This document shows positions 17,844 through 54,494 of a stretch of DNA of 64,000 nucleotides, piece by piece. Source of the DNA: Cellvibrio sp. KY-YJ-3 (GTDB taxonomy: Bacteria > Pseudomonadota > Gammaproteobacteria > Pseudomonadales > Cellvibrionaceae); the NCBI RefSeq assembly GCF_008806955.1, contig NZ_CP031727.1, positions 496,001-560,000 of the forward strand, written 5' to 3'. The position numbers and the translations under genes are program-made. How positions within the stretch are numbered: position 1 is the stretch's first letter; the number at the start of each line of letters is the position of its first letter. The notes below the pieces were generated by a model. The model saw nothing but the letters and a program-made list of their open reading frames with translations. It was not told the origin of the DNA and did not search any database.

Positions 17844-17857
17844 CGTAATCGTTTACA
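17844..17857. promoter_or_regulatory. Putative LacI-type operator 1 (CGTAATCGTTTACA)
   Basis: This 14-base near-palindrome with core GTAATCGTTTAC lies upstream of the GH130-epimerase-mannanase operon. The core is shared with five other sites in the window and has the central CG typical of LacI/GalR operators. The probable ligand is the regulator at 20096-21097. Confidence 0.75.
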
Positions 17858-17872
17858 CCCGTAGTTAAAATT

Positions 17873-17903
17873 TTTTGTGCTGCAGAAAAACCGCAGCACA
17901 AAA
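17873..17903 (-). terminator. Hairpin after the symporter gene
   Basis: Eleven-base arms (TTTTGTGCTGC / GCAGCACAAAA) lie just past the symporter stop. There is only a short downstream T-run on the minus strand, so it is a weak terminator candidate. It also lies within the promoter region of the GH130 operon. Confidence 0.5.
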
Positions 17904-17909
17904 TCGCTA

Positions 17910-19781
17910 TCAGGGCTTGCTTAATAAATGCTCGTCGTTAGTACCCTGCAGTGCAGAGGCAGGAATATCCGCCGGATAATCTTCCAGTTTTTGGTACCAG
18001 TTAAACCAGAGGAAAATGCTGGTGATCGCTGCCACAACCATTGCCGCGATAAACTCTGGCCAATGTTTGATAACCATAAAAATCGGCGCGGCGACCAGCG
18101 AGGTTTGCCACACAATCCCCACCAGTACATTGACTGCATCACGGGCAAAGTTTTTGTTGGCGCCCACCTGCGGATAATCTTTTTGCACTTCCGCCAATAC
18201 CGGTGCCCAAAAACCCCAAGGACGCACTTTGGTGTAAAACTTTTTCAGCACTTCCATATCGTCCGGTTTAGTCAACAGCGAACCAATAACGCAGGCAGCA
18301 ATACAGGCGAGGAACATAAAGGGGAAAGCATTGATGGGTGCTATATCGGTAAAAATCAGCGGGAAGGCGATCGCAAAACCGGTCACCATGCCCCAGAAAT
18401 AACCATAGCCATTAAACCGCCACCAGTACCACTTCAATACGTTGGAGGCGGTGTAACCACCGTAAAGTGCACTCACCAACCATTGAATAACCTGATTGAG
18501 GGTGGGAATAAAAAAGCCAATCGCCACACCGAGAATGACAAACAAGACGGAAATGAGGTAACTCATTTTTACGTAGGTTTTTGGTTCGGCATCGGCATTG
18601 ATGTAGCGTTTGTATAAATCGTTAACCACATAAGCCGGTGCAGCATTGACTGTTGCGGCAAAGGTGGACATAAAGGCCGCGAGCAAACCAGCGATTAACA
18701 ACCCCAACAAACCGCTCGGCAAAATTTCACCGGCCAATACCATGGGAAGAATTTGTTCAAAATCGACATTCTCACCCATCGCATTTAAATCACCCATAAA
18801 TAAACCCAGCGCAAGCACCGTTAACCCGGTGATAAGCATGTAGCGCGGAAACATCAATACGACGGTAACAACACCACTCATTTTGGCGGCTTCTTTCGGG
18901 GTTTTAGCGGAGAGCACACGCTGCATGTCGTAAGTGGGTTGTGGGCCGGCCATGCTTTGCAACATGCCTTTAAACAACATCAGCATAAAAAAGATGGCAA
19001 ATAATTCATAACCATCGGCATCAATTTTTTGTTGTGCGGCGGCGAGTTTTTCTGACCAATCCAAATGCAATTCCCAGCTGAATAAAATACTGGTCCAGCC
19101 TTCGGGAATCGCGGCATTTAACATTTCCGGTGAAATGCGCTGCATGGCAATTACCCCCACCGCGATGCAGGCAACAGTCATAATGAAAAATTGCAGCACC
19201 TCGGTAAACACCACACTGAACATACCGCCTTTCACCACGTAAAGTGTGGTGATGGCGGTGATAATCAGCCCATAACAAACATCGTTCATATGTGGGTCTG
19301 CAGCCAATTGCCAAGGCATAAATACCGCTGCAAATTTACCAATACCGATAAATCCGTAAGCAATAAAACCAATCACATTCACCAGCGCAAACAGCACCAC
19401 AATTAAATGTGAGAGGCGTGCGCCCTTACCTTCGCCAAAGCGAAAGGTAATCCATTCCGCACCGGTCATTACGCCTGAGCGACGCAACCAGGCGGAGAGG
19501 AAAACCATCAAAAAGATCTGGTTAAACACCGGCCACAACCAGGGAATAAATACACTGGTGAGACCATACACAAACAGCAAATACACCAGCCACATAGTGC
19601 CGGAAATATCGAACATGCCCGACGCATTCGATAAGCCCAGTTGCCACCAGGACAGTTTATTGCCGCCAAGGAAGTAACTTTTTATATCTTTGGAGGCGCG
19701 ACTGGAAATCCAAAAACCAACCACCAGAGTGGCAATAACGTAAGCGAGAATAATCGCTATATCCAACAGAGGAAGATTCAT
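17910..19781 (-). CDS. Sodium:solute symporter (SSS family), probable manno-oligosaccharide importer
   Basis: This is a 623-residue inner-membrane carrier of the SSS/SGLT family with about 13-15 hydrophobic segments. Typical features are ASKDIKSYFLGGNKLSWW at the end of the first loop and SNASGMFDISGTMWL in the second segment, where Na+ ligands lie. A longer C-terminal extension (about residues 500-623) carries two more hydrophobic stretches. It is encoded between the GH130 operon and the LacI regulator, transcribed divergently from the regulator. Mannobiose or short manno-oligosaccharides are the inferred substrate because the operon beside it has the enzymes for them and no other importer is present. 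Confidence 0.88.
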   Translation of the reverse strand: MNLPLLDIAIILAYVIATLVVGFWISSRASKDIKSYFLGGNKLSWWQLGLSNASGMFDISGTMWLVYLLFVYGLTSVFIPWLWPVFNQIFLMVFLSAWLRRSGVMTGAEWITFRFGEGKGARLSHLIVVLFALVNVIGFIAYGFIGIGKFAAVFMPWQLAADPHMNDVCYGLIITAITTLYVVKGGMFSVVFTEVLQFFIMTVACIAVGVIAMQRISPEMLNAAIPEGWTSILFSWELHLDWSEKLAAAQQKIDADGYELFAIFFMLMLFKGMLQSMAGPQPTYDMQRVLSAKTPKEAAKMSGVVTVVLMFPRYMLITGLTVLALGLFMGDLNAMGENVDFEQILPMVLAGEILPSGLLGLLIAGLLAAFMSTFAATVNAAPAYVVNDLYKRYINADAEPKTYVKMSYLISVLFVILGVAIGFFIPTLNQVIQWLVSALYGGYTASNVLKWYWWRFNGYGYFWGMVTGFAIAFPLIFTDIAPINAFPFMFLACIAACVIGSLLTKPDDMEVLKKFYTKVRPWGFWAPVLAEVQKDYPQVGANKNFARDAVNVLVGIVWQTSLVAAPIFMVIKHWPEFIAAMVVAAITSIFLWFNWYQKLEDYPADIPASALQGTNDEHLLSKP

Positions 19782-20095
19782 TAACAGATTCCAAATTTAT
19801 TATGTGGATCGACACGGGTCGTTTTTCTTATCTGATTGTTACTTCCGTGCATCGCCATACAACCCCTAGCGGGCAGGCTCAGGAAAAACCGCCTAGGTAA
19901 CAGCAGGGAGCAAACCTTTGAAAAAGATATAGCATAACTGACCATAAGCACCTTAACAGCAAGCTAATGTAACCGTTTACATTTTATTTTTCTAGTCTCT
20001 TGTGGTGAGCTGTAGTAAATTTTCAGTCAAATAAGCAGTTTTTCGGACAAATCCATACCCACCCGCCTATCACCGGCACCCTAAGGTCGTTTTTT
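19782..20095. other. Divergent regulatory region between symporter and LacI gene
   Basis: This 314-base gap has no gene. It contains operator 2 (19968-19981) and must hold the divergent promoters; I could not assign -35/-10 boxes with confidence. Confidence 0.6.
19968..19981. promoter_or_regulatory. Putative LacI-type operator 2 (TGTAACCGTTTACA)
   Basis: The near-palindrome with core GTAACCGTTTAC lies 187 bases from the symporter start and 115 bases from the LacI-gene start. It suggests regulation of the symporter and autoregulation of the repressor. Confidence 0.78.
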
Positions 20096-21097
20096 ATGTC
20101 CAATATTCGCGATGTTGCACGCTTGGCTGGCGTATCCGTTGCAACCGTTTCACGTGCCCTGAGCAACCCCGAAAAAGTTTCTGATGAGAGCCTGGAAAAG
20201 GTTCACAAGGCTATCGCCCAAGTGGGCTACCGCCCCAACATGCTGGCACGCAACTTCCGCTCAGCGCGCGCCTACGCGGTGGTAGTGCTGGTGCCCGATA
20301 TAGCCAACCCCTTCTACTCGCTTTTTATTCGCGCCCTGGAAGACCGCGCCCAGCAAAAAGGTTATGCCGTGCTGTTGGGTGATACCCGCGGCACCCCCGA
20401 GCGCGAAATGGAGTACATCCGCCGCGTAGAAACCCGCCTGGCCGATGGCATAGTGCAGCTGCGCCCCAGCTCGGAAAAAAGCCAGAACAACATTCCGCCC
20501 GATATTCCCTGCGTGAATGCCTGTGGCTGCGAATACACCACTGGCCCAGCCATTCGTATCGATAACCGCGCCGCTGCCAAAACCATGGTGAACTATTTGA
20601 TTTCGCTCGGACACAAACGCATCGGCGTTATCTCCGGCTTGAAAGACAACCCCCACGCCATTGATCGCCTGGAAGGCTATAAAGAGGCATTGGCCGAAGC
20701 AGGTATTCCTTTTGAGAGAGACCTGATTGCCGAAGGTGACTTCACCATGTGGTCCGGCCTGAACGCCGCCTTCCAGTTCTGTAATATGAAAGTGCGCCCT
20801 ACCGCGATTTTTTCCATGAATGATGAAATGGCAATCGGCGCTATGCAGACCTTAAAAAATCAGGGCATTCGCATTCCGGAGGATATGTCGGTCACCGGTT
20901 TTGACGATATCGCCTACGCCAAATATTCCGACCCAAGCCTCACCACCATTTCGCAACCGGCGGAAGAGATGGGCAAAATGGCGATGGATATGTTACTGAA
21001 AGTGATTGAAGGCGAACCACTCAGCCAACGCGAATGTGTATTGCCGACGGAATTTATCATTCGCAAAAGTACCGGGCCATTGTTAACTAAAAAGTAA
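20096..21097 (+). CDS. LacI/GalR-family transcriptional regulator of the mannan regulon
   Basis: The N-terminal helix-turn-helix is canonical (IRDVARLAGVSVATVSRALS, residues 4-23), with the hinge YRPNMLARNFRS near residues 46-57. A periplasmic-binding-protein-like sensor domain follows (about 60-330, including GFDDIAYAKYSDPSLTTI). The 333-residue length is standard. The conserved hinge fits minor-groove insertion at a central CG, as found in all six GTAA-Y-CG-N-TTAC sites seen here. The inducer is probably a manno-oligosaccharide or a pathway product, inferred from neighbours. Its gene is followed by a strong terminator at 21181-21226. Confidence 0.93.
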   Translation: MSNIRDVARLAGVSVATVSRALSNPEKVSDESLEKVHKAIAQVGYRPNMLARNFRSARAYAVVVLVPDIANPFYSLFIRALEDRAQQKGYAVLLGDTRGTPEREMEYIRRVETRLADGIVQLRPSSEKSQNNIPPDIPCVNACGCEYTTGPAIRIDNRAAAKTMVNYLISLGHKRIGVISGLKDNPHAIDRLEGYKEALAEAGIPFERDLIAEGDFTMWSGLNAAFQFCNMKVRPTAIFSMNDEMAIGAMQTLKNQGIRIPEDMSVTGFDDIAYAKYSDPSLTTISQPAEEMGKMAMDMLLKVIEGEPLSQRECVLPTEFIIRKSTGPLLTKK

Positions 21098-21180
21098 GGC
21101 TATATTTTTATAATCACCAAAACATACATTATTTAAATATTGTCATGTGTAATAAAAATTTATAGCAACGCAAATCATCA

Positions 21181-21226
21181 AATAAATAAGGCCAAGGGAG
21201 CATTAACTTCCTTGGCCTTATTTATT
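21181..21226. terminator. Bidirectional intrinsic terminator
   Basis: Perfect 17-base arms (21181-21197 / 21210-21226, centre GGCCAAGG / CCTTGGCC) with A/T-rich flanks lie between the convergent LacI gene and the small secreted protein gene. Confidence 0.88.
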
Positions 21227-21240
21227 GATACGAAAAACTA

Positions 21241-21567
21241 TCAGGGTTTTAAGTATACATTCCAGTTGGAGCAAGATCCGTTAGCATAATATGCGGAACT
21301 GCCGGGGTAAAAGGTACAAGTGCGGTTATTCCACCCATTGCTGTAATTGGTATAAACACCAACGACATAAGTGCCCGATGTACATGCAATGCTGTATTCT
21401 TGATAAAGATAATATCCTCCACCAGTACTATATACCTGCGTAAAGGTACAACCTCCATAAGAATTACCGAGGACAGGGTCACCATACTCTGCTACTTTTT
21501 GATCTGCATGCGCAACAGCAGAAAGACCTAATGCCACTACAATAGCCGCCATAAATTTAAACTTCAT
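21241..21567 (-). CDS. Small secreted cysteine-containing protein, unknown
   Basis: The 108-residue protein is not recognised. A clear Sec signal peptide (MKFKFMAAIVVALGLSAVAHA, cleaved near residue 21) is followed by a Tyr/Ser/Gly-rich mature part with four cysteines (about residues 40, 61, 83 and 98). These could form two disulfides, suggesting a compact beta-rich extracellular domain. The start has an excellent ribosome site (AAGGAG, 5-6 bases upstream). It is a single-gene unit ending at the bidirectional terminator at 21181-21226. Confidence 0.75.
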   Translation of the reverse strand: MKFKFMAAIVVALGLSAVAHADQKVAEYGDPVLGNSYGGCTFTQVYSTGGGYYLYQEYSIACTSGTYVVGVYTNYSNGWNNRTCTFYPGSSAYYANGSCSNWNVYLKP

Positions 21568-21692
21568 ATTAACTCCTTGTGTTAACTATTATCGGCCTTG
21601 CCTCATGCTTCGCTCTCGGGTGAGTGATAAATTTGGCCGTTATTTATCGCGATCCTACTCCCTTCCTACCGGAACTTTTTAGCGCACCATTT

Positions 21693-22367
21693 TTATTGAA
21701 AAATGGAATTGCCCTGCGACGAGATATACACAACAAACTCACCTTTTTCCGGATTGGGAAAATAAGTGATGGAATAATTTGAATCTGGATTGTTACTAGC
21801 TAACACCTGCCACAGTGCACGATAAGCCTTATCGGCACTGGCATCATCCTGAGAAGGGATAGTTATTTTGCACGTCACTGACCGGCAACTCATGTGCGTG
21901 GGAATATAAGAGTCGAGCGCAGCGGTATCAGCAAAGATTGACAGTAATTTATTTTCTTCTGTAGCCGCCCATTGGTAATCGACAAGCTCGGCCTCGTAGC
22001 GAAGATTGGATTCTTCAATTAAGAATTTGCTATTTTTTTCATTTGCAAACTGTCTGAGGATATTAATCTGTTGCTGTTGTGCATCACGGGCTTTTACCAG
22101 CGCCTCTATATCTGCTGTTTGGTGTATTACCTGCACAGCTGGGGAAGTTTCATTGGTCGATGCTGTTTTATTTTCAACAACCACGGACTGATCAGGAGAG
22201 AGCGGCGCAGATGCAGGAGGAAATACGGCAAGCGGGATAACATCATCCACGCAAGTATTGGCCGAAAGGTTGGGCGCGATGTAATGATTTTTTGTCACAG
22301 TAAACGTTATATAAAACGTCAATGTGACAGTTATAGCGATTATGCTGACAAATTTAAAATTACCCAT
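21693..22367 (-). CDS. Membrane-anchored protein with periplasmic coiled coil, unknown
   Basis: I do not recognise the family. From ATG 22367 (an upstream GTG at 22376 is also possible) the protein is 224 residues. One N-terminal membrane segment (VSIIAITVTLTFYITFTV) is followed by a Pro/Ser-rich stretch, a helical coiled-coil segment (ALVKARDAQQQQINILRQF) and a C-terminal globular domain with the cysteine pair SCRSVTC. The orientation puts the bulk in the periplasm. No neighbour suggests a function. Confidence 0.65.
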   Translation of the reverse strand: MGNFKFVSIIAITVTLTFYITFTVTKNHYIAPNLSANTCVDDVIPLAVFPPASAPLSPDQSVVVENKTASTNETSPAVQVIHQTADIEALVKARDAQQQQINILRQFANEKNSKFLIEESNLRYEAELVDYQWAATEENKLLSIFADTAALDSYIPTHMSCRSVTCKITIPSQDDASADKAYRALWQVLASNNPDSNYSITYFPNPEKGEFVVYISSQGNSIFQ

Positions 22368-22529
22368 CCGTAGCACCTGTTGTTATTAACAACCCATAAC
22401 AACATGTATACTAGACGACAAATAAAACCGCAAGCACAAAACCTAATTTAGATTTTTTTGGCGCGCAAGTTTCTTTTCATTAGAAAAAGAAATTTTACAA
22501 AGCCAACAGAGAACCATTTTTTATCAATA

Positions 22530-22565
22530 AAAAAGCGCGCAGTAATTTTTTACTGCGCGCTTTTT
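22530..22565. terminator. Bidirectional intrinsic terminator after the second epimerase
   Basis: Perfect 16-base arms (AAAAAGCGCGCAGTAA / TTACTGCGCGCTTTTT) enclose a TTTT loop 16 bases beyond the epimerase stop. Confidence 0.9.
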
Positions 22566-22581
22566 CGCTTCTGGGAAAATA

Positions 22582-23736
22582 TTACTTTTTTGCCACCAAC
22601 TCAAAATGATCAAGCAATTCCATTGCCGCCACAATTAAATGGTACAGCGTACTGGCGGGTGCGACATCTACGACCACTTCATCATTAGCACCGCGTTGAT
22701 CAACATAGGAACCCGGTGTTGATGCGCAGAGATAATAGCTAAATAAGTCATCCACGCCTTTAATCGCAATCGCTTCAGCATCCGAATTTCCCTCACGGAT
22801 CTGCACCAGACTCGCTTTAATTAATTCAGTGATTCCCCAGCACCGTTTGTTGGGGTCAATGATCTCGCCGGTGTAACTCACCGCATCAAATAACAGACCG
22901 GATTTATCCATACCAATTTCCAAACCGCGCGCATACAGCGCGTTGGTATAACGGGAAACCGGGCGACCGGTGCGGCGGTGATACCAGTCGAGCAGCCAGA
23001 CCCACTCCATCATATGACCCGGTTCAACCGTATCGCCTTTGGCATTGGGCAAACGCGTCCAGCTATCGTCAAAAAATTCAAACAAGACACCGTGTTGCTC
23101 ATCAAAAAAGTGGGTTTGGAATAGCGCAAATAATTCGCCCACCCGCGCCAAATATTTTGCATCACCGGTAGCATCGTAGAGCGCAAGAAAGGCTTCAAAT
23201 AAATGCATATGCGGATTTTGGCGGCGACAGGCATAGTCGTAATCACCCTCGATCCAACCACCTACTGCAGAACCAAAAGCGGCATCCAAATGGGCGATTA
23301 ATTTATCGGCCTCCTGAAGATAAGCAGCCTCGTTAAATGCGCGATAACACCAGGCATTGGCGAGCAGGAAAAACGCGTGGTCATAGAGATCCTGTTTGGT
23401 ATCTACCACCACAAAATCTTTGTTCAATAAGTGGGTATATCCCGCGCCTGCGGCAGGGTGTGCCGCTGCTCCATGCACAAACGCCAATAACTTTTTGGCA
23501 ATATCCTTACCCTCCGGGCACCAGCCGCGATGGTAGGCCGCTGCAAAAAAGAAGGCTTGGCGAGCCTGTACCCGCACCCGGGTGCTGGACTCCAGGTCAG
23601 GTACACCCGCGGGTGTCAGGCGCTCGTAGTTAGCGCCGGTTGTAGGCTCTATACCACGCGCTAACCAGAGAGGCAGGGCATCTTGTTTGATCCAGTGTTC
23701 AAGGCGACTGGCCGCCGCACGCAATGCTTGAGACAT
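22582..23736 (-). CDS. AGE-family sugar epimerase/isomerase (second copy; candidate mannose isomerase or epimerase)
   Basis: This is an (alpha/alpha)6-barrel protein of the N-acylglucosamine 2-epimerase superfamily. Active-site motifs are RVRVQARQAFFFAAAY, NPHMHLFEAFLALY, EPGHMMEWVWLLDW and a late histidine in STLYHLIVAAMEL. The pattern RQAFFFA plus EPGHMMEW is closer to YihS/mannose-isomerase-type members than to the disaccharide epimerase at 15354. Interconversion of mannose with fructose or glucose is the likely role, which would use the mannose released from mannan. I place the start at ATG 23736 (MSQALRAAASR): the frame extends to 23898, but the extra 54 residues cross an intrinsic hairpin and resemble no domain. 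Two operator palindromes lie upstream. Confidence 0.83.
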   Translation of the reverse strand: MSQALRAAASRLEHWIKQDALPLWLARGIEPTTGANYERLTPAGVPDLESSTRVRVQARQAFFFAAAYHRGWCPEGKDIAKKLLAFVHGAAAHPAAGAGYTHLLNKDFVVVDTKQDLYDHAFFLLANAWCYRAFNEAAYLQEADKLIAHLDAAFGSAVGGWIEGDYDYACRRQNPHMHLFEAFLALYDATGDAKYLARVGELFALFQTHFFDEQHGVLFEFFDDSWTRLPNAKGDTVEPGHMMEWVWLLDWYHRRTGRPVSRYTNALYARGLEIGMDKSGLLFDAVSYTGEIIDPNKRCWGITELIKASLVQIREGNSDAEAIAIKGVDDLFSYYLCASTPGSYVDQRGANDEVVVDVAPASTLYHLIVAAMELLDHFELVAKK

Positions 23737-23848
23737 AAAGAATCCATTTACCGCCAGATGCGGTTGCTGTGAGTTAAGTGGCGAATGGGGATTATGGCTG
23801 ATTGAGTCGGCATTTTGCGCGGAGCCTTTAACAGGGCGCAAATAAAAA

Positions 23849-23866
23849 GCCCCGGAAAACCGGGGC
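23849..23866 (-). terminator. Leader hairpin with T-run upstream of the second epimerase (possible attenuator)
   Basis: On the minus strand, GCCCCGG-TTTT-CCGGGGC is followed by TTTTTATTT, the form of an intrinsic terminator. It lies 113 bases before the epimerase start and downstream of both operators, so transcription from that promoter must pass through it. Confidence 0.7.
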
Positions 23867-23957
23867 AAAAAACACAACAGCGGGCTATGGCTTAACAATT
23901 AATCACTAACAACTGTCAGCAGCGACGACAGAAAACAATGGATAAAACCACCATAAC

Positions 23958-23971
23958 TGTAATCGATTACC
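23958..23971. promoter_or_regulatory. Putative LacI-type operator 3 (TGTAATCGATTACC)
   Basis: Perfect 12-base palindrome GTAATCGATTAC upstream of the second epimerase, matching the shared core of the six sites. Confidence 0.78.
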
Positions 23972-24023
23972 AACAAATAACCATGAATAAAATGGCCTTA
24001 GCGGGGCTTATTATGGATAAAAA

Positions 24024-24037
24024 TGTAATCGGTTACA
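24024..24037. promoter_or_regulatory. Putative LacI-type operator 4 (TGTAATCGGTTACA)
   Basis: Second copy in the same promoter region, 66 bases from operator 3 centre to centre. The spacing would allow DNA looping by a LacI-family tetramer or cooperative binding. The core is identical to operator 5 upstream of the CBM10 mannanase. Confidence 0.78.
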
Positions 24038-24102
24038 AGTATTTTGTCATGGAAATCATCAAAGGATTACGATTCGCCATCCATCTGACTGACAGGCATA
24101 AA

Positions 24103-24126
24103 AAAACCCCGGCAAGCCGGGGTTTT
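24103..24126 (-). terminator. Intrinsic terminator of the ExbBD/AgmX/TPR operon
   Basis: AAAACCCCGG / CCGGGGTTTT arms enclose a 4-base loop; on the minus strand the stem is followed by eight T. It lies 19 bases past the AgmX-like gene. Confidence 0.9.
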
Positions 24127-24144
24127 ACAAGGAGCGTCAAACGC

Positions 24145-25113
24145 TTACTGCGGTAAAAAGTCGAAGGTTTGATTGATGGTAGTGCGCGCCACATTGGAGG
24201 CAGGAAAACTGATCAAGCGAATGCGCTGCAGGATTTTCCCCTCCAGATCGCTATCGCCCAGTTCGCTGGATACCAATGTTGCCTCAACGATTTTACCGCT
24301 GGGGTCGATCACAATCTTCACCACCATCTTGCCTTCCAGCGCCGCGTTTTGGCGCAGGGCGCGGTTGTAGATCGAATAGATCGCACCTTTGTGCTGTTCC
24401 ATGATCTTGCGGATTTCTTCTTCGCTGCGCGCTGCACCGCCCGCACCATTGCTGTTGCCAGCAGTAGCCTGGGTCGATTTTTTGCCCGCTTCGGCCAAGC
24501 CGCTTTTCACTTTGGTAGTCTCACGCCCCGAGAGCGCCGTGCCGCCGGTATCGCGACTCAATGCCGCGGTATTAATGCCACCACTGGCGGTTTTGGCGCC
24601 ACTGGTAATCATGGCGCGATCCAACTGCGCAGCTTCACCCGTACTATTGGTTACTGTAGTCGCTGCCGTTTCCACCGCCGAGGTCTGCATCATTTCACGC
24701 ATTTCAGCCAGATCGTCTTTAAACTGCATTACACCGGTATTGGCCGCCTGCTCGCGCGCTTTTTCCAGTGCCGCTTTAGGTGGAGCAACAGGTTTTTTCA
24801 CCGGCTCCGGCGGTTTAACGACCGGCTCCGGCTTTTTTTCTTCCACTTTAGGCTCGGGCTTTTTTTCCTCTACCTTGGGTGGCTCGATAGGTTTCGGGGG
24901 CGGTAGCTCTTTCTTTTCCAACACGACCCGCGCCAATTGCGGTGGCAGCTTTTCTTTTTCCGCACGGGTAATCTCAGGCACTTTGCTGAGTGTCACCACA
25001 ATACTAAGCACCAGCAACACCACAAAACTCACAACCAATATTTTGGTAAATCGCTGATCGTCCTCAATCGAGGAGCTCCAGGGCAACTGTAAATTCAACA
25101 GGGGGTTGGCCAT
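24145..25113 (-). CDS. TonB-like energy transducer with AgmX/PglI-type C-terminal domain
   Basis: An N-terminal cytoplasmic stretch is followed by one membrane segment (ILVVSFVVLLVLSIVVTLS, about residues 24-42). Next comes a Pro/Lys/Glu-rich periplasmic spacer with repeated EEKKPEPKVEEKKPEP, a low-complexity Ala/Thr/Gly region, and a C-terminal domain of about 90 residues (EEIRKIMEQHKGAIYSIYNRAL onward, including GKMVVKIVIDPSGKI). This resembles the AgmX/PglI domain of gliding-motility transducers and, more distantly, TonB. It should couple proton-motive force from the ExbB/ExbD-like channel to envelope partners. ATG 25113 has GGGAGG at good spacing and sits 1 base after the preceding stop (TGA-G-ATG); the frame could also begin at 25128. 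It is last in the nine-gene operon. Confidence 0.85.
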   Translation of the reverse strand: MANPLLNLQLPWSSSIEDDQRFTKILVVSFVVLLVLSIVVTLSKVPEITRAEKEKLPPQLARVVLEKKELPPPKPIEPPKVEEKKPEPKVEEKKPEPVVKPPEPVKKPVAPPKAALEKAREQAANTGVMQFKDDLAEMREMMQTSAVETAATTVTNSTGEAAQLDRAMITSGAKTASGGINTAALSRDTGGTALSGRETTKVKSGLAEAGKKSTQATAGNSNGAGGAARSEEEIRKIMEQHKGAIYSIYNRALRQNAALEGKMVVKIVIDPSGKIVEATLVSSELGDSDLEGKILQRIRLISFPASNVARTTINQTFDFLPQ

Positions 25114-25114
25114 C

Positions 25115-25633
25115 TCAACCCTCCCCATTGTTAGCGGGTAATTCTTTTTTGGTTACGGCCAGCGAAATATCGCGATACTCCGCCGCCGCACAAGTCGCCA
25201 TCACTTTCTTCAGTAATTGATAAGGCACCTTTTGGTCAGCCATCACCGTAACAGGGCGCCCGGTGAGTTGATTTTTTTCCGTCAATGGCCCGGCTTTTTC
25301 GGCGTGATATTTTAATTCCTGGGTGAGCGGCGCAAACTGATCGCCTTCAGCGGCCAATAAATCCGCCACCGAGCCCACTGCCCTGCCAGCCACAACCACG
25401 TCGGTTGCACTGATCAATACCAACAAATTTTCTTCCGGAACCTGATCAGACACCGACGCGGGTAACTTGATACTTTTATCCGTTTGCAAAACTTCCACAT
25501 CACCCGAATTCACCAACAGGAAAAATACCAGAATGGTAAAAATATCCATGAGTGAAACCAGGTTTAACTTGGAACCTTGTTTTAACCGGCGATGATGTTT
25601 TGCCATGCGTTTAGCGCGTAGGGATTGCTTCAT
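25115..25633 (-). CDS. ExbD/TolR-type biopolymer transport protein (second copy)
   Basis: A basic N-terminus (KRMAKHHRRLKQG) is followed by a single membrane helix LVSLMDIFTILVFFLLVNS (about residues 25-43) with the aspartate that carries protons in ExbD/TolR/MotB-type proteins, then a periplasmic domain. It is 172 residues, slightly longer than classic ExbD. The start codon overlaps the preceding ExbD stop by 4 bases (ATGA), showing translational coupling. With the paralogue at 25630 it probably forms a heteromeric stator with the ExbB-like protein, as paired ExbD-like subunits do in AglQ/AglS-type channels. Confidence 0.87.
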   Translation of the reverse strand: MKQSLRAKRMAKHHRRLKQGSKLNLVSLMDIFTILVFFLLVNSGDVEVLQTDKSIKLPASVSDQVPEENLLVLISATDVVVAGRAVGSVADLLAAEGDQFAPLTQELKYHAEKAGPLTEKNQLTGRPVTVMADQKVPYQLLKKVMATCAAAEYRDISLAVTKKELPANNGEG

Positions 25634-26181
25634 GGTGTCGCTCCCTGTGCATTGCCACTCACGGCGGAGGTTTGACCACCTGCGGGTGGCGCATCGCCCA
25701 ATGAAATCTCCGGAAACAATTCCGCATCGACCATGCTGGCGGCAACTACCGCTTTGAATGAACGTACGGTATCCATAGTGCTAACCAGGGTTTGATAGTC
25801 GGTATCTTTTTCGGAGAGGATATAAATATCTTTTTTCTGGATACCTTTATCTTCCAACAAGCGTTTGGTTTCCTGTAGCACCGTCGCCAATAATGCGAAG
25901 TCATATTGCCCGTCAGCGGTTTTTTCCACCCACTTTAATTTGATGCCCGCCGGATAATTCACTTCAAATTTATCGGCGCGAATAATCAACTCCAATTGCT
26001 GCGGTGGCTCTTCGGTTTGCGGCGTGCTTGAATCCGCCATGTCCGGCAATTTGAGATCCAGTACGGTGGTGCGCGCGAGCACCATGCTCATCAACAATAC
26101 CGGCACCAATATGATCATCAGATTCATAAAGGAGGTGATATCGAGATCTGGATCCTCTTTAAAACGGCGTTTTATACGCAT
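25630..26181 (-). CDS. ExbD/TolR-type biopolymer transport protein (first copy)
   Basis: Short basic N-terminus, then DPDLDITSFMNLMIILVPVLLMSMVL with the proton-carrying aspartate before the membrane helix (about residues 13-35), and a periplasmic part of about 145 residues. The 183-residue protein is distinct in sequence from the second ExbD copy, so this is not a recent duplication. The gene lies 59 bases after the ExbB-like stop and overlaps the next gene by 4 bases. Confidence 0.87.
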   Translation of the reverse strand: MRIKRRFKEDPDLDITSFMNLMIILVPVLLMSMVLARTTVLDLKLPDMADSSTPQTEEPPQQLELIIRADKFEVNYPAGIKLKWVEKTADGQYDFALLATVLQETKRLLEDKGIQKKDIYILSEKDTDYQTLVSTMDTVRSFKAVVAASMVDAELFPEISLGDAPPAGGQTSAVSGNAQGATP

Positions 26182-26240
26182 AAGATTTTCCCCAATAAAT
26201 ACAACTGCTGATTGCGCAATAACTGCAACGGGCAGTAAGT

Positions 26241-26924: not shown

Positions 26925-26970
26925 AACGTCTATTAACCTCACCAGAGAATGTAATTAAAAAATGAATTGA

Positions 26971-33414: not shown

Positions 33415-33733
33415 GGTCTATCTCCGAAGAATGGATGGATGGCCGCTGAGGCGTCACCCGGCAATCAGAAAGCCCTTAGCATTTTGTAGACCAACTGATT
33501 CAACACCGGTAAATGCGCCACATTCTAGAAGCCCGTTCACTTTTTGAATGTGACACCGAGCACAGTTGATCTGGCGCCTCAATTTCTTTTTGGGTTGCAC
33601 GTGTTTCTTTTTTTAATCCACGAGTTACGTTTTATGTCGCCAACTAACAATTTGCGCGCAGGTTGTACAACAACTCGCCACCTGAAAGCCTAGAGCGTTT
33701 TTGCCAGAATGCTAAGTGCTTGCTGGTGCAATT
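33415..33733. other. Intergenic region with promoter of the nine-gene operon
   Basis: I see no gene in these 319 bases. The region should contain the promoter of the downstream operon and the end of the apbE transcript, but no clear terminator or promoter box stood out. Confidence 0.45.
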
Positions 33734-34711: not shown

Positions 34712-34725
34712 AGCCACCGCCAGTA

Positions 34726-38482: not shown

Positions 38483-38510
38483 ACCAATCAACGTGCGCCA
38501 CGCGGCGCGA

Positions 38511-40241: not shown

Positions 40242-40268
40242 AATTGTCAGATCCGGGGCGCGCGGTGG

Positions 40269-40730: not shown

Positions 40731-40773
40731 ATAACACTCCTGGAATATCGCTTGTTGTTAGTATCACCGGGTA

Positions 40774-42009: not shown

Positions 42010-42019
42010 GTTTGCGTCC

Positions 42020-45615: not shown

Positions 45616-45622
45616 AAAAACC

Positions 45623-46627: not shown

Positions 46628-46699
46628 GGGTATGACTGAGTCCTTCACGCTGGCTGACGACAGGAATGAGTTGGGAATGGCAATTGTCAGTCGTATCAA

Positions 46700-47176
46700 A
46701 AGCTTAGTGCGTTATGATTATCAAAGCCACGGGATTCTACTCCATCCATATTACAAAAGCGAAATAGTCCTACAAGCCCGTAAAACATGGCGCGATAAGC
46801 CTTTTTGGCCTTAATTGGATAATGAATCACAAAGGAAGTTGCAGGCGAGCGAGAATATGCGACACAGGGCACAAAAATGAAGGGTGAAAACGAAAAACCC
46901 CGACTGCTTAAGGGGGCAATCAGGGCTTTTACAGGATGAAGGCCATACCTTGGCAATACGGGATGCTCTATTCCATTCAACTCCTTGCGACTGTCGCATC
47001 CTGCGACAAACTCCAATGACCGTCATTATTGATGAATGAGGCGTCAGTTTATAGTGGCTAAGCTCTGCAAGTTTTGTAGGAGATATCGCACACGCCTGCC
47101 AGTCAAAACGCCTGCAGTTTTGTGACAGCAGGTTTATAATCCGCCGCCGCCAGCCAATAACCTGCGAGAGAAACAC
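46700..47176. other. Divergent intergenic region between gspC and xseB
   Basis: About 480 bases hold no convincing gene; the two minus-strand frames here lack a domain, a ribosome site and protein-like composition. It must carry the divergent promoters of the gsp and xseB operons. A GC-rich imperfect hairpin near 46895-46922 (CCCC...GGGG) is weak. Confidence 0.45.
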
Positions 47177-47422
47177 ATGCCGCCCAAGAAAAAAAGCATC
47201 GACTTTGAGCAATCGCTCGCCACGCTCGAAAGCCTGGTGGCGCGTATGGAGCAGGGCGATATGACATTGGAAGAATCGCTGCAGGCGTTTGAAACCGGCA
47301 TAGCCCTGACCCGCGAGTGTCAAACCCGCCTCGCCGCCGCTGAACAACAGGTCACCTTACTGATTGAACAACAGGGCAATATCCGCTTGGAAGCCTTTGA
47401 TCGCGATGAAGGCGAGGCCTGA
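47177..47422 (+). CDS. xseB: Exodeoxyribonuclease VII small subunit
   Basis: Eighty-one residues with the family pattern [35 protein letters not shown]. This short helical protein assembles along XseA to form exonuclease VII, which degrades single-stranded DNA. Its TGA overlaps the ATG of ispA (TGATG), the classic xseB-ispA-dxs coupling. xseA is not in the window. Confidence 0.95.
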
Positions 47423-48309
47423 TGGACACGGATTTCAATAGCTTTGCCAGCGCCTGTCGCCTGCGGGTTGATAGCGCCCTTGATCAGTATTTCCCTGCCG
47501 GTAGCGACCCAACCCAACTGCGCGCTGCCATGCGCTACAGCCTGTTTAATGGCGGCAAGCGGGTGCGCCCGATCCTTGCCTACGCCTCGGCACTGGCGAT
47601 AAACCCCAGTATCGAGCTGCCCCTGATCGATCCCGTCGCCTGTGCTCTGGAGTGCCTGCACTCCTACAGTCTGGTGCACGACGACCTGCCCGCCATGGAC
47701 GATGACGATCTGCGCCGCGGCAAACCCACCTGCCATATCGCCTTTACCGAGGCCAGCGCCATTCTCGCGGGCGACGGCCTGCAGACCTTGGCTTTTGACC
47801 TGCTTACCCAAACCGAATTACCCGCCAACACCCAGATCCAGCTGGTGCGCCAACTGGCCGCAGGCTCGGGCGCCGGGGGCATGGTGCTGGGCCAAGCGAT
47901 TGATTTAGCCGCCGTAGATCACCAGCTCAGCCTCGCGCAGCTGGAAACCATGCACAATCACAAAACCGGCGCGCTAATCCGCGCCGCCGTTGCGATGGGC
48001 GCACTCAGCGCCGGTGCCAGCGCGGCACAACTGGCGGCGCTCGATAACTACGCCGCCGCTATCGGCCTGGCCTTTCAGGTGCAAGACGATATTCTCGATG
48101 TCACTGCCGACACCGCCACCCTGGGCAAACAGCAAGGGGCCGATATAGCTCGCAACAAGCCGACTTACGTATCACTACTGGGACTGGATAGTGCCAAAGC
48201 CAAAGCTGCTGAATTACATCAGCAGGCGCAGGCCGCACTGCTGGATTTTGGTGACAGCGCCGTCCATTTGCGCCAACTGGCGCGCTATATAGTAGAAAGG
48301 TCGAACTAG
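47422..48309 (+). CDS. ispA: Farnesyl diphosphate synthase (geranyltranstransferase)
   Basis: This all-helical prenyl synthase of 295 residues makes C15 isoprenoid precursor from IPP and DMAPP. The first aspartate-rich motif is LVHDDLPAMDDDDLRRGKPT, the second FQVQDDILDVT. GGKRVRP near residue 50 binds diphosphate. The gene lies between xseB (4-base-type overlap) and dxs, so precursor supply and chain elongation are expressed together. Confidence 0.94.
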   Translation: MDTDFNSFASACRLRVDSALDQYFPAGSDPTQLRAAMRYSLFNGGKRVRPILAYASALAINPSIELPLIDPVACALECLHSYSLVHDDLPAMDDDDLRRGKPTCHIAFTEASAILAGDGLQTLAFDLLTQTELPANTQIQLVRQLAAGSGAGGMVLGQAIDLAAVDHQLSLAQLETMHNHKTGALIRAAVAMGALSAGASAAQLAALDNYAAAIGLAFQVQDDILDVTADTATLGKQQGADIARNKPTYVSLLGLDSAKAKAAELHQQAQAALLDFGDSAVHLRQLARYIVERSN

Positions 48310-48374
48310 CCAAGCCTCTGCCAAGCTGCCTACAATGGCCGACTGCCACCTGATAACCAGACTGATGACCGCGA

Positions 48375-50285
48375 ATGCATAACGAGATACCCACCTCCCG
48401 CCCGCTCACGCCACTGCTCGATAGCATCGACAGCCCCACTGAGCTGCGCGCCCTGAGCGAAAAGCAGCTGCCGCAACTGGCAGAAGAACTGCGCGCCTTT
48501 TTGCTCTACAGCGTCGGCCAGACCGGCGGTCACTTTGGCGCTGGCCTCGGTGTGGTAGAACTCACTATCGCACTGCATTACGTCTATCAAACCCCGAACG
48601 ACCGCCTAGTGTGGGATGTGGGCCACCAGACCTATCCACACAAAATCCTGACCTCGCGCCGCGAGCGCATGGGCACTATTCGTCAGGGCAGCGGCCTGTC
48701 CGGTTTCCCCAAGCGCGAAGAGAGCGAGTTCGATACCTTTGGGGTCGGCCACTCCAGCACCTCCATCAGCGCCGCCCAAGGCATGGCGATTGGCGCCAAA
48801 ATGGCAGGTATTGAACGCAAAGTGGCAGCGATTATCGGCGATGGCGCCATGACTGCCGGTATGGCATTTGAAGCGCTGAACCACGCCGCGCACACTGAGA
48901 CCGATATGTTAGTGGTACTCAATGACAACAACATGTCCATCTCCCCCAATGTGGGCGGCTTTTCCACTTACCTGTCCAAAATCTGGGCGAGCAAGTTTTA
49001 CAACTCCCTGCGCGAAGGCAGCAAACAGGTGCTGGGCATAATCCCACCCGCCTGGGAGTTTGCGCGCCGCACCGAGGAGCACTTCAAGGGTTTTATGTCG
49101 CCCGGCACCTTGTTTGAAGAGATGGGTTTTAACTATGTCGGCCCCATCAACGGCCACGATCTGGGCGATTTAGTGCGCTGCCTAAGCAACCTGCGCGAGA
49201 TCAAAGGCCCAAAACTGCTGCACATCATCACCCAGAAAGGCAAAGGTTTTGAGCCAGCGGAGCTGGACCCGGTGGGCTATCACGCGCTCAACAAAATCGA
49301 GCCCAAAAAAGCCGAACTGGGTGCGGTGGATGCCCCCAAAAAAGTGAAATATCAGGACGTATTTGGCCGCTGGCTGTGCGATATGGCGGCGCAGGATGAC
49401 AAGCTAATTGGCATCACCCCCGCCATGTGTGAAGGGTCAGGCATGGTGGAATTTGCCGCCCACTTCCCCGAGCGCTTTTACGATGTAGCCATCGCCGAGC
49501 AACACGCGGTGACACTGGCAGCAGGCATGGCCTGTGAAGGCCAGAAGCCGGTAGTGGCGATCTACTCCACCTTTTTACAGCGCGCCTACGACCAGTTGGT
49601 ACACGACGTCGCCCTGCAGAATCTGGACGTCACCTTTGCCATCGACCGCGCGGGTTTGGTCGGCGAAGACGGCCCCACCCACGCCGGCAGTTTTGATATC
49701 AGCTTCCTGCGCTGTATTCCCAATATGGTGATTGCCGCACCGAGCGACGAAAATGAGTGCCGCCAGCTGCTTTACACCGCCTACCACTACCAAGGCCCCG
49801 CCGCTGTGCGCTACCCGCGCGGAACAGGCCCGGGCACAGCGATAGAAAAAACCATGACCGCCCTGCCCATCGGCAAAGGGGTTATCAAACGCGAGGGTAA
49901 ACAAGTCGCCCTGCTCTGTTTTGGGCCGCTGCTGGCTACCGCCCAACAAGTCGCCGAGCAGCATAATTACACCCTGGTGGATATGCGTTTTGTGAAACCG
50001 CTGGATGCACAATTAGTGGAGCAGCTGGCGGGCTCACATCAATTGCTGGTGACCCTGGAAGAGAATACGATTGCTGGCGGTGCAGGCAGTGCCGTGACCG
50101 AACATTTAAATCATATCGGCCTGATTTGCCCGACCTTACAGCTCGGTTTTGGCGATGAATTTGTTGAACACGCCAGCCAGAAACAGCAGCTGGCAAGCCA
50201 GGGGCTGGACGCCAAATCCATCGCCGAGCGTATTAGTTTGCGCCTGAAGGCAACAACAAGCGACGCCAGATCCATAGCACACTAA
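48375..50285 (+). CDS. dxs: 1-deoxy-D-xylulose-5-phosphate synthase
   Basis: First enzyme of the MEP isoprenoid pathway, a thiamine-diphosphate enzyme of 636 residues. Motifs visible: [15 protein letters not shown], the ThDP-binding [17 protein letters not shown]...LNDNNMSIS, the transketolase-type [17 protein letters not shown], and [18 protein letters not shown]. It starts 65 bases after ispA in the same operon. Confidence 0.96.
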
Positions 50286-50361
50286 ACTCGATAGTGAGGC
50301 TGCCAAGCATTACATAGCAGCCTGACTGTTCACCTGATTAACCCGCGAGGAGAGCGCCACC

Positions 50362-51255
50362 TTGTCATCCTCTAAAGCTGATCACTCCCAAGGCCTGCTG
50401 TTGTTTCGCCTGCACAACCAACAGATATTTGGCCTGGGCACACTTAAAATCCAGGAATTGGTTCCCTATCAAGCCGTGACCCCCATGGTCAACCAGCACC
50501 CGGGGATTCTGGGTGCGCTCAATATTCGCGGCCAGACCATGCCCATAGTCGACCTCGCGGCAGCGGTGGGCAAAGGCGCCACCCCGCAAGATGCGCTGGC
50601 CAGTAGTTTTATTATTGTCACCGATGTACAGCGCCAAAAAGTGGGTTTTCTGGTGCGCCAGATCGAGCGTATTGCCGATACTAACTGGCGCGATATCCGC
50701 GCGCCCGATAAATTTTTGGGCAATAGCATTTACATCACCGGCGTAACCCGGGTCGACAACCAGCTGGTACAACTGCTGGATGTGGAAGTGATCATGGCAC
50801 GCCTCTTCCCGCTCGACGCCTCCAAAGCCACCGCCACCATTACCGATGTAGAACGCGAGCAGCTGCGCCCCATGCGTATTTTATTGGTGGACGACTCGCG
50901 CACCGCGCGCAAACAGTTAAGCGATTCCCTCGATGCCATCAATGTGCGCTATCAGGTGACCGATGACGGCCAAAAGGCACTGGAGATTATGCGCGCCGCC
51001 GCCAACAGCGGACAGCCCATCGATATATTAGTTAGCGATATCGAAATGCCGGGGCTGGACGGCTACGAGCTAGCCTTTGCCGTGCGCGACAACAAACAGC
51101 TCGCCAGCGCCTACATCATCCTGCACACCTCACTCTCCAGCAGCATCAGCGTCAGCCAAGCCCGCCAGGTCGGTGCCGACGAAGCGCTCACCAAATTCGA
51201 CGCGCGTGAATTAATTGATGCGATGTTGCGTGGCGCCACCAAAAAAATTCGCTAA
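50362..51255 (+). CDS. cheV: CheV chemotaxis coupling protein (CheW-receiver fusion)
   Basis: An N-terminal CheW domain (about residues 10-155; FGLGTLKIQELVPYQAVTPM, GALNIRGQTMPIVDLAAAVG) is joined to a C-terminal receiver (about 172-295) with acidic DD in ILLVDDSRTARKQL, phosphoacceptor D in VSDIEMPGLDGYELA and lysine in ALTKFDA. CheV couples chemoreceptors to CheA and its receiver tunes adaptation. The start is an unusual TTG at 50362, supported by GAGGAGAG 7-8 bases upstream. It is monocistronic. Confidence 0.93.
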   Translation: MSSSKADHSQGLLLFRLHNQQIFGLGTLKIQELVPYQAVTPMVNQHPGILGALNIRGQTMPIVDLAAAVGKGATPQDALASSFIIVTDVQRQKVGFLVRQIERIADTNWRDIRAPDKFLGNSIYITGVTRVDNQLVQLLDVEVIMARLFPLDASKATATITDVEREQLRPMRILLVDDSRTARKQLSDSLDAINVRYQVTDDGQKALEIMRAAANSGQPIDILVSDIEMPGLDGYELAFAVRDNKQLASAYIILHTSLSSSISVSQARQVGADEALTKFDARELIDAMLRGATKKIR

Positions 51256-51266
51256 CTAGCGCCCAA

Positions 51267-52157
51267 TCAAACCAATGACGCCACCCCACCCGCAAATCGC
51301 TCCGCCAGAAAATCGATAAACAACCGTACCTTGGGCGCCAAATGGCGCTGCTGGGGGTAGACCACCCAGACTCCGGCGTCGTTAAAACGGTAGTCGTCCA
51401 ATACCTTCACCAAGCGGCCATCGGCGAGAAATTCATCCACGTAATAATCCGGTAACTGCGCCAGCCCCAAACCTTTCAGCGCCGCGTCCAGCAGGGCCGG
51501 GCCGGAGTTGGCCTGCCAGTTACCGCGCACCTGTAGATCCTTACGCTGGCCACCGTCACTTAACAGCCAATAACCGCGCGTGCCCACCAAACAATTGTGG
51601 CGCTCCAAGTCTGTGAGTGTTTGCGGCGCCGAAATACGCGCAAGGTAGTCAGGTGAACCGACAATATATTCGCGCCGGTCACACAGGCGTTTGGCGATCA
51701 GGGTGGATTCGCGCATGACCCCCATGCGAATCGCCAGATCAAACCCCTCTTCAATTAACTCCACCTGCCGGTTGCTGAAGTACATCTGTACCTTGAGTTG
51801 CGGGTAAAGCAGTTGGAAGTCGTTCACCAAGGGCGCGATATAACGGTCGCCAAAGGTGGTCGCCGCGGTAATTTTCAGCAATCCCGTAGGCTGGCCTTGA
51901 TGATGCTGCAGCAGCGATTCCGCCTCGCGCAGCCCATCAAACAAATGGCGACAGCTGTCGTAATAGAGTTGCCCCGCATCGGTCAGGCGGATTTGGCGCG
52001 TGGTGCGATAGAGCAATTGGGTGCCCAACTGCTGCTCCAGCTGGCTCACCAGCCGACTCACATGGGAATTGGATACTTGCAGCTCCCGCGCTGCGGCGGC
52101 AAAGCTGCCAAATCGAACTACCGCGATAAATGCCTCTACCCGCTCCCAATGTTGCAT
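51267..52157 (-). CDS. LysR-family transcriptional regulator
   Basis: The N-terminal winged helix-turn-helix (MQHWERVEAFIAVVRFGSFAAAARELQVSNSHVSRLVSQLE pattern, residues 1-45) and the effector-binding domain are standard for LysR proteins (296 residues). It is transcribed away from the class III alcohol dehydrogenase gene with a 103-base shared gap. A LysR protein in this position often controls the divergent gene, so it may regulate the formaldehyde operon; this is inference. Confidence 0.9.
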   Translation of the reverse strand: MQHWERVEAFIAVVRFGSFAAAARELQVSNSHVSRLVSQLEQQLGTQLLYRTTRQIRLTDAGQLYYDSCRHLFDGLREAESLLQHHQGQPTGLLKITAATTFGDRYIAPLVNDFQLLYPQLKVQMYFSNRQVELIEEGFDLAIRMGVMRESTLIAKRLCDRREYIVGSPDYLARISAPQTLTDLERHNCLVGTRGYWLLSDGGQRKDLQVRGNWQANSGPALLDAALKGLGLAQLPDYYVDEFLADGRLVKVLDDYRFNDAGVWVVYPQQRHLAPKVRLFIDFLAERFAGGVASLV

Positions 52158-52176
52158 TGTTGCCCCACAGCAATAA

Positions 52177-53370
<1,194 letters not shown>

Positions 53371-53389
53371 GGGCTACAGGGGCACCGAC

Positions 53390-54250
53390 ATGACCAGTAT
53401 TTTGACCAACATCGCCAGCAACAAAAGTTTTGGCGGCTGGATAAAGCGTTACAAACACCATTCCACTAGCCTCAACTGCGACATGGTGTTTGCGATTTAT
53501 TTACCACCGCAGGCCGAAACCCGCACGGTGCCAGTCTTGTGGTGGCTGTCGGGGCTGACCTGTACCGACGAAAACTTTATGCAAAAAGCCGGCGCCCAGC
53601 GTATGGCAGCAGAACTGGGTATCGCCATTGTGTGCCCGGACACCAGCCCGCGCGGCCTGAACCTACCCGGCGAGCACGACACCTATGATTTCGGCTCCGG
53701 CGCGGGTTTCTACCTGAATGCCACCCAAGCGCCGTGGGATAAACACTACCGCATGTACGACTATTTGACCCTTGAGCTGCCGGAACTGATCAGAGCGCAC
53801 TTTCCGGTGAATGGTCGCGAATCGATCAGCGGTCACTCCATGGGCGGCCATGGTGCGCTGGTGCTGGCGCTGCGCCAACCGGGCCGCTACGCCTCGGTAT
53901 CGGCCTTTGCACCTATCGCCAACCCTGGTAACTGCCCTTGGGGTCAAAAAGCGTTTAGCGGCTATTTGGGCGAAGATCGCAACACCTGGCAGCAGTACGA
54001 CGCCTGCGCATTGATTGCGAGCGGTGTATCAAGCCAGGAGCTGCTGGTGGATCAGGGTGATGCGGATGAGTTTCTAGCACCGCAACTGGGCGCAGACGCC
54101 CTGCAAGCCGCCTGCGCCAAAGCGGGCCAACCGCTGCTTTATCGCACCCGCAGCGGCTATGACCATGGCTACTTTTTTATTGCCAGCTTTATCGACGATC
54201 ACCTGCAGTATCACGCCAAATACCTTTATCCAACGGGTGCTCACCACTAA
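53390..54250 (+). CDS. fghA: S-formylglutathione hydrolase
   Basis: Hydrolyses S-formylglutathione to formate and glutathione. The serine-hydrolase nucleophile is in SGHSMGGHGALV, with Asp in DQGDADEFL and His in SGYDHGYFF. The esterase-D signature WWLSGLTCTDENFMQKAG is present. Start ATG 53390 is decided by AGGGG 8 bases upstream and by the family's MTSI...NKSFGG N-terminus; the same frame runs back to 53237 but only as overlap with frmA. Confidence 0.95.
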   Translation: MTSILTNIASNKSFGGWIKRYKHHSTSLNCDMVFAIYLPPQAETRTVPVLWWLSGLTCTDENFMQKAGAQRMAAELGIAIVCPDTSPRGLNLPGEHDTYDFGSGAGFYLNATQAPWDKHYRMYDYLTLELPELIRAHFPVNGRESISGHSMGGHGALVLALRQPGRYASVSAFAPIANPGNCPWGQKAFSGYLGEDRNTWQQYDACALIASGVSSQELLVDQGDADEFLAPQLGADALQAACAKAGQPLLYRTRSGYDHGYFFIASFIDDHLQYHAKYLYPTGAHH

Positions 54251-54279
54251 ACACCCGCCAACACCCTTATTTGCGCATA

Positions 54280-54306
54280 AAAAAGGGGCTTGCCAAGCCC
54301 CTTTTT
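54280..54306 (+). terminator. Intrinsic terminator after fghA
   Basis: AAAAAGGGGCTT / AAGCCCCTTTTT arms with a 3-base loop (GCC), 30 bases beyond the fghA stop. Confidence 0.9.
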
Positions 54307-54318
54307 CTCGGCTAACTT

Positions 54319-54332
54319 TGTAATCGGTTACA
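54319..54332. promoter_or_regulatory. Putative LacI-type operator 5 (TGTAATCGGTTACA)
   Basis: Same 14 bases as operator 4, in a longer imperfect palindrome (TTTGTAATCGGTTACAAA). It lies 320 bases upstream of the mannanase ATG. Confidence 0.78.
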
Positions 54333-54480
54333 AAACAATTGCCATAGATTTATCGATTATCTTCTGGGCATTCGACACCACAGAATAATAATTTTGTTTT
54401 AATTCAAAGATATACACAAAAACCAGCATTTGTTTGTCTACCGATACAATAGGGATTTTATCTTTTATTAACTGAAAATA

Positions 54481-54494
54481 AGTAACCGGTTACA
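54481..54494. promoter_or_regulatory. Putative LacI-type operator 6 (AGTAACCGGTTACA)
   Basis: Perfect palindromic core GTAACCGGTTAC, 145 bases upstream of the mannanase start and 162 bases from operator 5. The paired arrangement matches that in front of the second epimerase. Confidence 0.78.

Follow-up and report, generated by a model that had tools for sequence, protein, structure and literature searches.

We propose that a LacI-family regulator of Cellvibrio sp. KY-YJ-3 controls, mainly as a repressor, a mannan regulon that is spread over the whole chromosome. Its gene lies in a stretch of 64,000 nucleotides (NZ_CP031727.1, positions 496,001 to 560,000; hereafter the window), and its putative operators are copies of the palindromic word GTAAYCGNTTAC. 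On the sequence evidence set out below, we give this reading a probability of about 0.87. The window holds exact matches to the word at six places (17845, 19969, 23959, 24025, 54320 and 54482), which are those reported by the first-pass annotation of this DNA. The regulator and the six putative operators are as follows, in window coordinates:

20096..21097, plus strand, LacI-family regulator and proposed binder (Pfam LacI and Peripla_BP_3)
17845..17856, unstranded, putative operator GTAATCGTTTAC, exact match, 74 bp upstream of the GH130 start
19969..19980, unstranded, putative operator GTAACCGTTTAC, exact match, between the divergent symporter and lacI genes
23959..23970, unstranded, putative proximal operator of the epimerase/small-RNA promoter, exact match
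24025..24036, unstranded, putative distal operator of the same promoter, overlapping a minus-strand -35-like box
54320..54331, unstranded, putative distal operator of the GH5-CBM10 mannanase, exact match
54482..54493, unstranded, putative proximal operator of the GH5-CBM10 mannanase, exact match

All six sites lie between genes, as had been claimed, and a scan of the window allowing one mismatch found no further place. The sites at 17845 and 19969 match on one strand only and the other four on both. These 10 exact strand matches compare with ~0.13 per 64 kb in a chromosome-wide control with the letters of the word reversed. When the window was shuffled 100 times and one mismatch allowed, a mean of 1.18 strand matches (maximum 5) was obtained, against 12 observed. 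The excess over chance asserted by the first-pass annotation is thus borne out by both controls. The 37-kb extent that it gave to the regulon is an artefact of the window, since 14 further places, nine of them intergenic, lie elsewhere in the chromosome.

The chromosome searched is a single contig of 4,489,528 bases. It contains 29 strand matches to GTAAYCGNTTAC at 20 places, and the reversed-letter control gives 9 strand matches. Fifteen places are intergenic and the other five fall within long frames (217090, 2685673, 2982071, 3747558 and 3865421). Finding at least 15 of 20 places between genes has a binomial P of 2e-13 if the share of the window outside frames of at least 90 aa (7.7%) is used, and of 3e-9 with the 14.9% non-frame share of all examined stretches of this genome. 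Counting the word within coding regions, a check proposed earlier, gives 7 strand matches at the five places in this genome, which is not above the 9 of the control. A palindromic operator with a central CG is a LacI/GalR trait and is found here; its core was fixed by the search, and the symmetric flanking T/A and the conservation before orthologues are independent of it. A T precedes GTAA, outside the searched word, in 24/30 half-sites. The intergenic sites beyond the window, in chromosome coordinates, are assigned to these putative targets:

705962, TonB receptor, beyond which lies a tryptophan halogenase gene
751166, TonB receptor, at a distance of 523 bp
839722, pectate lyase on one side (486 bp) and a DUF3592 protein on the other
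1100248, triosephosphate isomerase (TIM), then class II aldolase (FBA) and fructose bisphosphatase (FBPase)
1283965, GH26 resembling CjMan26C
1338904, GH5-CBM10-CBM2 mannanase
1618078, gluconate-2-dehydrogenase-like subunit, GMC oxidoreductase and isomerase-like protein
2565679, GH26 whose start resembles that of a lipoprotein
4093827, small pentapeptide protein, then GH26 resembling CjMan26A; uxaC on the opposite side

Putative operators stand before all three GH26 genes found and before both close GH5 endo-mannanases; five other GH5 matches have 25% identity or cover the C-terminal part only, and a search of this kind misses distant GH5 enzymes such as Man5A. The sole GH130 gene of the genome is also a target, and behind its site at 17845 lies an operon of GH130, EpiA, Man5A-like and GH27 (Aga27) genes. 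The genes behind the window sites are:

16590..17771, minus strand, GH130 4-O-beta-D-mannosyl-D-glucose phosphorylase (PDB 3was, E 3.4e-182)
15354..16586, minus strand, EpiA, cellobiose 2-epimerase (NCBIfam NF041848, 799.2 bits against a cut-off of 800)
13971..15341, minus strand, Man5A-like GH5 exo-beta-mannosidase (PDB 1uuq MAN5A, E 7.5e-298)
12626..13843, minus strand, GH27 alpha-galactosidase (family match)
17910..19781, minus strand, sodium:solute symporter (SSF; Pfam)
22582..23736, minus strand, AGE-superfamily epimerase, substrate unassigned, with corrected start at ATG 23736
54639..55865, plus strand, GH5 endo-beta-mannanase with CBM10, with corrected start at ATG 54639

The epimerase start lies near ATG 23736, not at TTG 23898, and the GH5 mannanase probably starts at ATG 54639. 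Pfam finds no family in the Man5A-like protein at 13971-15341, yet PDB 1uuq matches it over nearly its whole length.

The sites are conserved before orthologous genes. Relatives are cited by genome (G) and locus (L) handles. Among 20 orthologous lacI loci with 70-98% identity (L064, at 30% and from Clostridia, was left out), 16 have a site before lacI. A site precedes GH130 in 16 of the 19 loci that hold this gene, two of these sites being shared with lacI. Across six relatives and 70 examined places (8/9 in G020, with 4157643 left out), sites recur before GH26, GH5, GH130, symporter, lacI, epimerase and TonB-receptor genes. Further site-bearing genes in relatives encode GH134 (G131), GH9 (G059) and phosphoglucose isomerase (G066). 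The GH5-CBM10 mannanase orthologues of G015 and G059 also have operator pairs upstream. The G015 epimerase keeps both operators at a distance from lacI of 0.93 Mb on the circular map, or 3.65 Mb by contig coordinates. As a separate observation, L050 (Cellvibrio sp. OA-2007, the same organism as L046) holds a second lacI-GH130 cluster with a LacI of 92% identity and six words within 14 kb.

The word also follows the regulator across 144 genomes of the family. Motif strand matches average 15.85 (control 8.49) in genomes with a LacI of at least 60% identity (n=55), 8.04 (control 6.52) in those with 42-59% identity (n=23) and 4.29 (control 6.74) in those with no LacI at E 1e-80 (n=66). A rank test gives P = 3e-17, uncorrected for ancestry. 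In genus g22 the counts are 10-20 with LacI (8 genomes) and 1-7 without it (24 genomes), with no overlap of the ranges.

The protein at 20096-21097 has the architecture expected of such a regulator. PF00356 (71.2 bits) and PF13377 (143.8 bits) both exceed their cut-offs, so that a LacI helix-turn-helix is joined to a periplasmic-binding-like domain. Its recognition helix reads SVATVSRALS, and that of Escherichia coli GalR SVATVSRVIN. The regulator shares 95% identity with its counterpart in C. mixtus, compared with 90% for GH130 and 73% for EpiA; being more conserved than its neighbours fits a protein constrained by many sites. The genome encodes seven LacI-type proteins, and LacI-family operators are alike, so the word might be bound by a paralogue, with the local LacI a bystander. 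We consider this very improbable, because none of the six others matches it at either recognition residue: only 20096-21097 carries the V-A pair common to it and GalR, and the paralogues have M-K, F-K, P-I, Q-S, K-S and E-S at these positions. The nearest GTAAYCGNTTAC place is more than 35 kb from any of the six other LacI genes, and motif counts across genomes track the 20096-21097 LacI. It is, on sequence, the best candidate binder of GTAAYCGNTTAC. Two family identities were tried for it and rejected: CytR (NF008269, 300.1 bits, below the equivalog cut-off of 436) and GalR (NF008002, 187.6 bits, below the cut-off of 557).

The proposed regulon reaches beyond mannan. The first-pass annotation had placed the mannan genes of the window under one control. 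Shared control is supported by gene context, orthologue sites, co-occurrence and the recognition helix; the claim was too narrow, as the set is chromosome-wide and would include genes that are not mannan-specific, namely TIM-FBA-FBPase, the GMC oxidoreductase, the pectate lyase and perhaps uxaC. A close copy of the triosephosphate isomerase is present in 20/21 genomes of the genus. The ~500 bp upstream of these 20 copies hold a GTAANCGNTTAC site in 15, a one-mismatch site in three and none in two. There is no site at the nine judgeable loci among 23 other isomerase matches (L151, a broken copy, was left out). G031, the sole genome of the 21 without LacI at E 1e-80, is also the sole one without the close TIM copy; these absences may reflect a gap in a fragmented assembly. 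Upstream of the Gdh3/GMC operon, the 19 judgeable LacI-bearing genomes have 10 exact and eight one-mismatch sites, and G031 has none. The TonB receptor gene TBDR_705 has five exact and two one-mismatch sites among seven judgeable genomes. G023 (Gdh3 promoter) and G030 (TBDR_705 promoter) were left out at contig ends. At even base use, the chance that such an upstream stretch contains an exact or one-mismatch site is ~1.5%. The isomerase of this genome (L025:6476-9651, G000:C1:1100475 onward) is a close copy of a second type, with the aldolase and FBPase behind the same operator.

These additional targets raise the question of two overlapping regulons, in which a second regulator with a similar word would serve a pectin/central-carbon set (TIM, GMC, pectate lyase and uxaA/uxaC) beside the mannan set. 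GTAAACG half-sites are frequent at non-mannan targets, and places in G015 and G059 (L108, L071, L073, L107 and L113) lie beside uxaA, GH28, GH88, PL1, PL10 and glucokinase genes. The pyrimidine that had been read after GTAA is a strong preference and not a rule, for GTAAACGTTTAC stands upstream of target orthologues (TIM in G019 and a TonB receptor in G027). Against a second regulator, GTAARCGYTTAC has no match in three whole genomes, where its control has 1-2 per strand; GH130, GH26C and lacI in this genome carry the same GTAAACG half-site; and this genome has no second V-A LacI. We therefore hold two regulons to be unlikely and prefer one LacI regulon, in which pectin and hexose entry may share control with mannan, as the word beside pectin and glucokinase genes in G015 and G059 would imply.

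The mode of control is best read from the epimerase promoter:

24010..24038, minus strand, promoter-like TTGTAA-17-CATAAT, its -35 box under the distal operator

Seventeen epimerase loci were compared (L059 and L061, with 24-26% epimerase matches, were left out), and 15 were scanned for promoters (L051 and L056, with no operator there, were left out). All 15 scanned loci have a TTGTAA or TTGAAA box that shares bases with the distal operator. A -10-like hexamer (at least 4/6 matches) follows 16-18 bp after the box in 12/15, and one of the remaining three is cut by the stretch end. Where the operator changes from GTAA to GAAA in relatives, the box becomes TTGAAA. The promoter evidence is one of conservation, because the region has fewer promoter-like matches than its shuffles (6 against 12.3). 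With one mismatch allowed, the two operators are 65-66 bp apart in 12/17 loci, a spacing that would be compatible with a small loop or with cooperative binding. Upstream of the 705962 TonB receptor, the site extends over a -35-like box and its spacer. The overlap and the co-changing box favour repression by blocking of RNA polymerase. An activator or a dual regulator would be in keeping with the dual annotation of GalR, with the varied site-gene distances and with the weak promoter matches near most sites. Set against the operator positions at the epimerase and the 705962 receptor, it seems improbable, and we retain a mainly repressing LacI. The site at 19969, between symporter and lacI, leads us to infer that lacI may be autoregulated.

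Several observations weigh against the proposed regulon. No exact site precedes four of the 20 orthologous lacI genes and three of the 19 GH130 genes, and at least seven of the 70 places in relatives are inside frames of unrelated genes. Among genomes in which LacI does not reach the threshold, seven show 8-11 motif strand matches and one, G058, shows 22; 5/55 LacI-bearing genomes have at most five matches and 10/55 are not above their own control. The genomes share ancestry, so the P-values overstate independence. In this genome, the intergenic sites at 751166 (523 bp) and 839722 (486 bp) are far from their assigned genes. Promoter-like matches over 16 site-gene pairs are mostly weak and were used only where conserved.

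The two operators before the epimerase may also govern a small RNA. Between the promoter and the corrected epimerase start lie a conserved block, AAGCCATAGCCCGCTGTTGTGTTTTTT, and then an intrinsic terminator:

23844..24003, minus strand, candidate small RNA of ~160 nt with a folded 5' part, the GCUGUUGU block and a terminator (ends predicted)
23849..23866, minus strand, intrinsic terminator of the candidate RNA, upstream of the epimerase start
24107..24122, minus strand, terminator-like hairpin with a T run at the end of the upstream gene, read in the sequence and aligned; the terminator scan did not return it

The upstream gene thus appears to have its own terminator. The protein encoded at 24145-25128, on the same strand and directly upstream of the small-RNA unit, has an AgmX/PglI C-terminal domain. 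GCTGTTGT with the terminator is found at 13/17 epimerase loci, in Cellvibrio and Marinimicrobium, and is absent at L051, L057, L060 and L090; at L056 the RNA segment is present and no operator was found. The block is kept where its flanks have diverged, G015 included. Compared with shuffles, the 112-163-nt segment has the more stable fold in 12/12 sequences (z -2.4 to -5.9; L056, for which no promoter was found, was left out), and its 5' part alone has z of -1.75 to -5.2. Compensatory changes are few, with a kept double change in 4/38 pairs among seven close sequences, where the covariation term is slightly unfavourable, and in 2/11 pairs of the 3' part among 13 sequences. The structural claim hence rests on folding energy, not on covariation. 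A covariance model run over 1.2 Mb (89 loci, not whole genomes) gave no convincing second locus among the matches inspected; of 35 in all, 13 are the model's own sequences and the next five, when aligned, are mainly terminator-based. One of these five also has UGUUGU (L095:444-525, E 0.002). Rfam 15 has no window match above the gathering score, and the 14 matches at E of at most 1 in 23700-24150 are all below it; no known RNA family or Rfam riboswitch matches 23844-24003. Duplex energies of a 25-letter block were computed for 208 starts of open reading frames (266 kb of 4.49 Mb: the window and L021-L036); none of the 15 best is a convincing target related to mannan, and the 8-letter complement ACAACAGC is near none of those 208 starts. 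The U-rich stretch and terminator are no more than suggestive of an Hfq-dependent small RNA.

The segment could instead be a cis-acting attenuator leader of the epimerase. It lies upstream of that gene on the same strand at 13 loci, and its terminator precedes the start codon. No conserved antiterminator was seen by eye (no program search for one was made), terminators flank the unit on both sides, and no Rfam riboswitch was found. We consider the leader a real possibility, somewhat short of even odds, and continue to treat 23844-24003 as a candidate LacI-controlled small RNA. To the combined claim that the regulator directly controls both this ~160-nt structured RNA, through two operators of which one is on the -35 box, and a private TIM-aldolase-FBPase operon, we give an even chance.

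Binding, repression as its sign, the uptake route and the inducer are what we infer in the following scheme. Without mannan, a LacI dimer would sit on GTAAYCGNTTAC in or near promoters and block RNA polymerase. A sugar derived from mannan, for which mannobiose, mannosylglucose and mannose are the likeliest candidates, would enter through TonB receptors and the symporter. It would loosen the repressor and switch on secreted endo-mannanases (GH26 and GH5), receptors, the symporter, the GH130-EpiA-Man5A-Aga27 pathway, the TIM-aldolase-FBPase operon and the repressor itself. The triose operon could return triose phosphates to fructose 6-phosphate, and through the small RNA the mannan signal might act post-transcriptionally too. 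If true, polymer breakdown is joined to central carbon recycling, and the small RNA and the dedicated triose-recycling operon are new layers that match central metabolism to the polymer. Cellvibrio is a model for plant-wall breakdown, for which a candidate regulator gene is now available together with its operator word and putative targets. Adjoining the mannan operon of the window are a large RHS-repeat protein (8073-12476) and a small neighbouring frame (7490-8149) without Pfam match.

The window order GH130-EpiA-Man5A-Aga27 is, we take it, that of the unkA-epiA-man5A-aga27A cluster of Cellvibrio vulgaris/mixtus. We know of no description of a regulator or operators for that cluster. Among the literature entries listed, none gives an account of the regulon, of its operator word or of the RNA in Cellvibrio. 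In C. japonicus on glucomannan, 8/10 predicted mannanase genes rise, and the available text of the 2024 review that reports this names no regulator of the response (PMC10766802). The regulon itself would be of a known, LacI-family type, and the small RNA and triose operon are its surprising parts. ManR denotes LacI-family regulators of mannose and mannosides in comparative-genomics reconstructions, where accessible parts of the reports give an outer-membrane transporter, permease and regulator as targets (PMC2996990) and five orthologous groups (PMC4052901). The main text of PMC4052901 mentions neither Cellvibrio nor mannan, and PMC2996990 does not use the term mannan. The likeness to ManR, LacI-family control of mannoside genes, is one of description. 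The same holds for GlyR2 of Clostridium thermocellum, which belongs to a different phylum; in the portion of the review at hand it is a LacI-family mannobiose-responsive repressor of a mannanase gene with one confirmed target (PMC10766802). The E. coli GalR regulon is comparable in its SVATVSR helix, LacI/GalR architecture and 32% protein identity. Its operators include GTGTAATCGCTTACAC, matching the word here, and are paired at some promoters, according to the part of the source available (PMC5110547). The 20096-21097 protein is probably GalR-like in its working and not GalR. Unlike the GalR regulon, the putative Cellvibrio targets serve to hydrolyse mannan and take it up, and they include a candidate small RNA.

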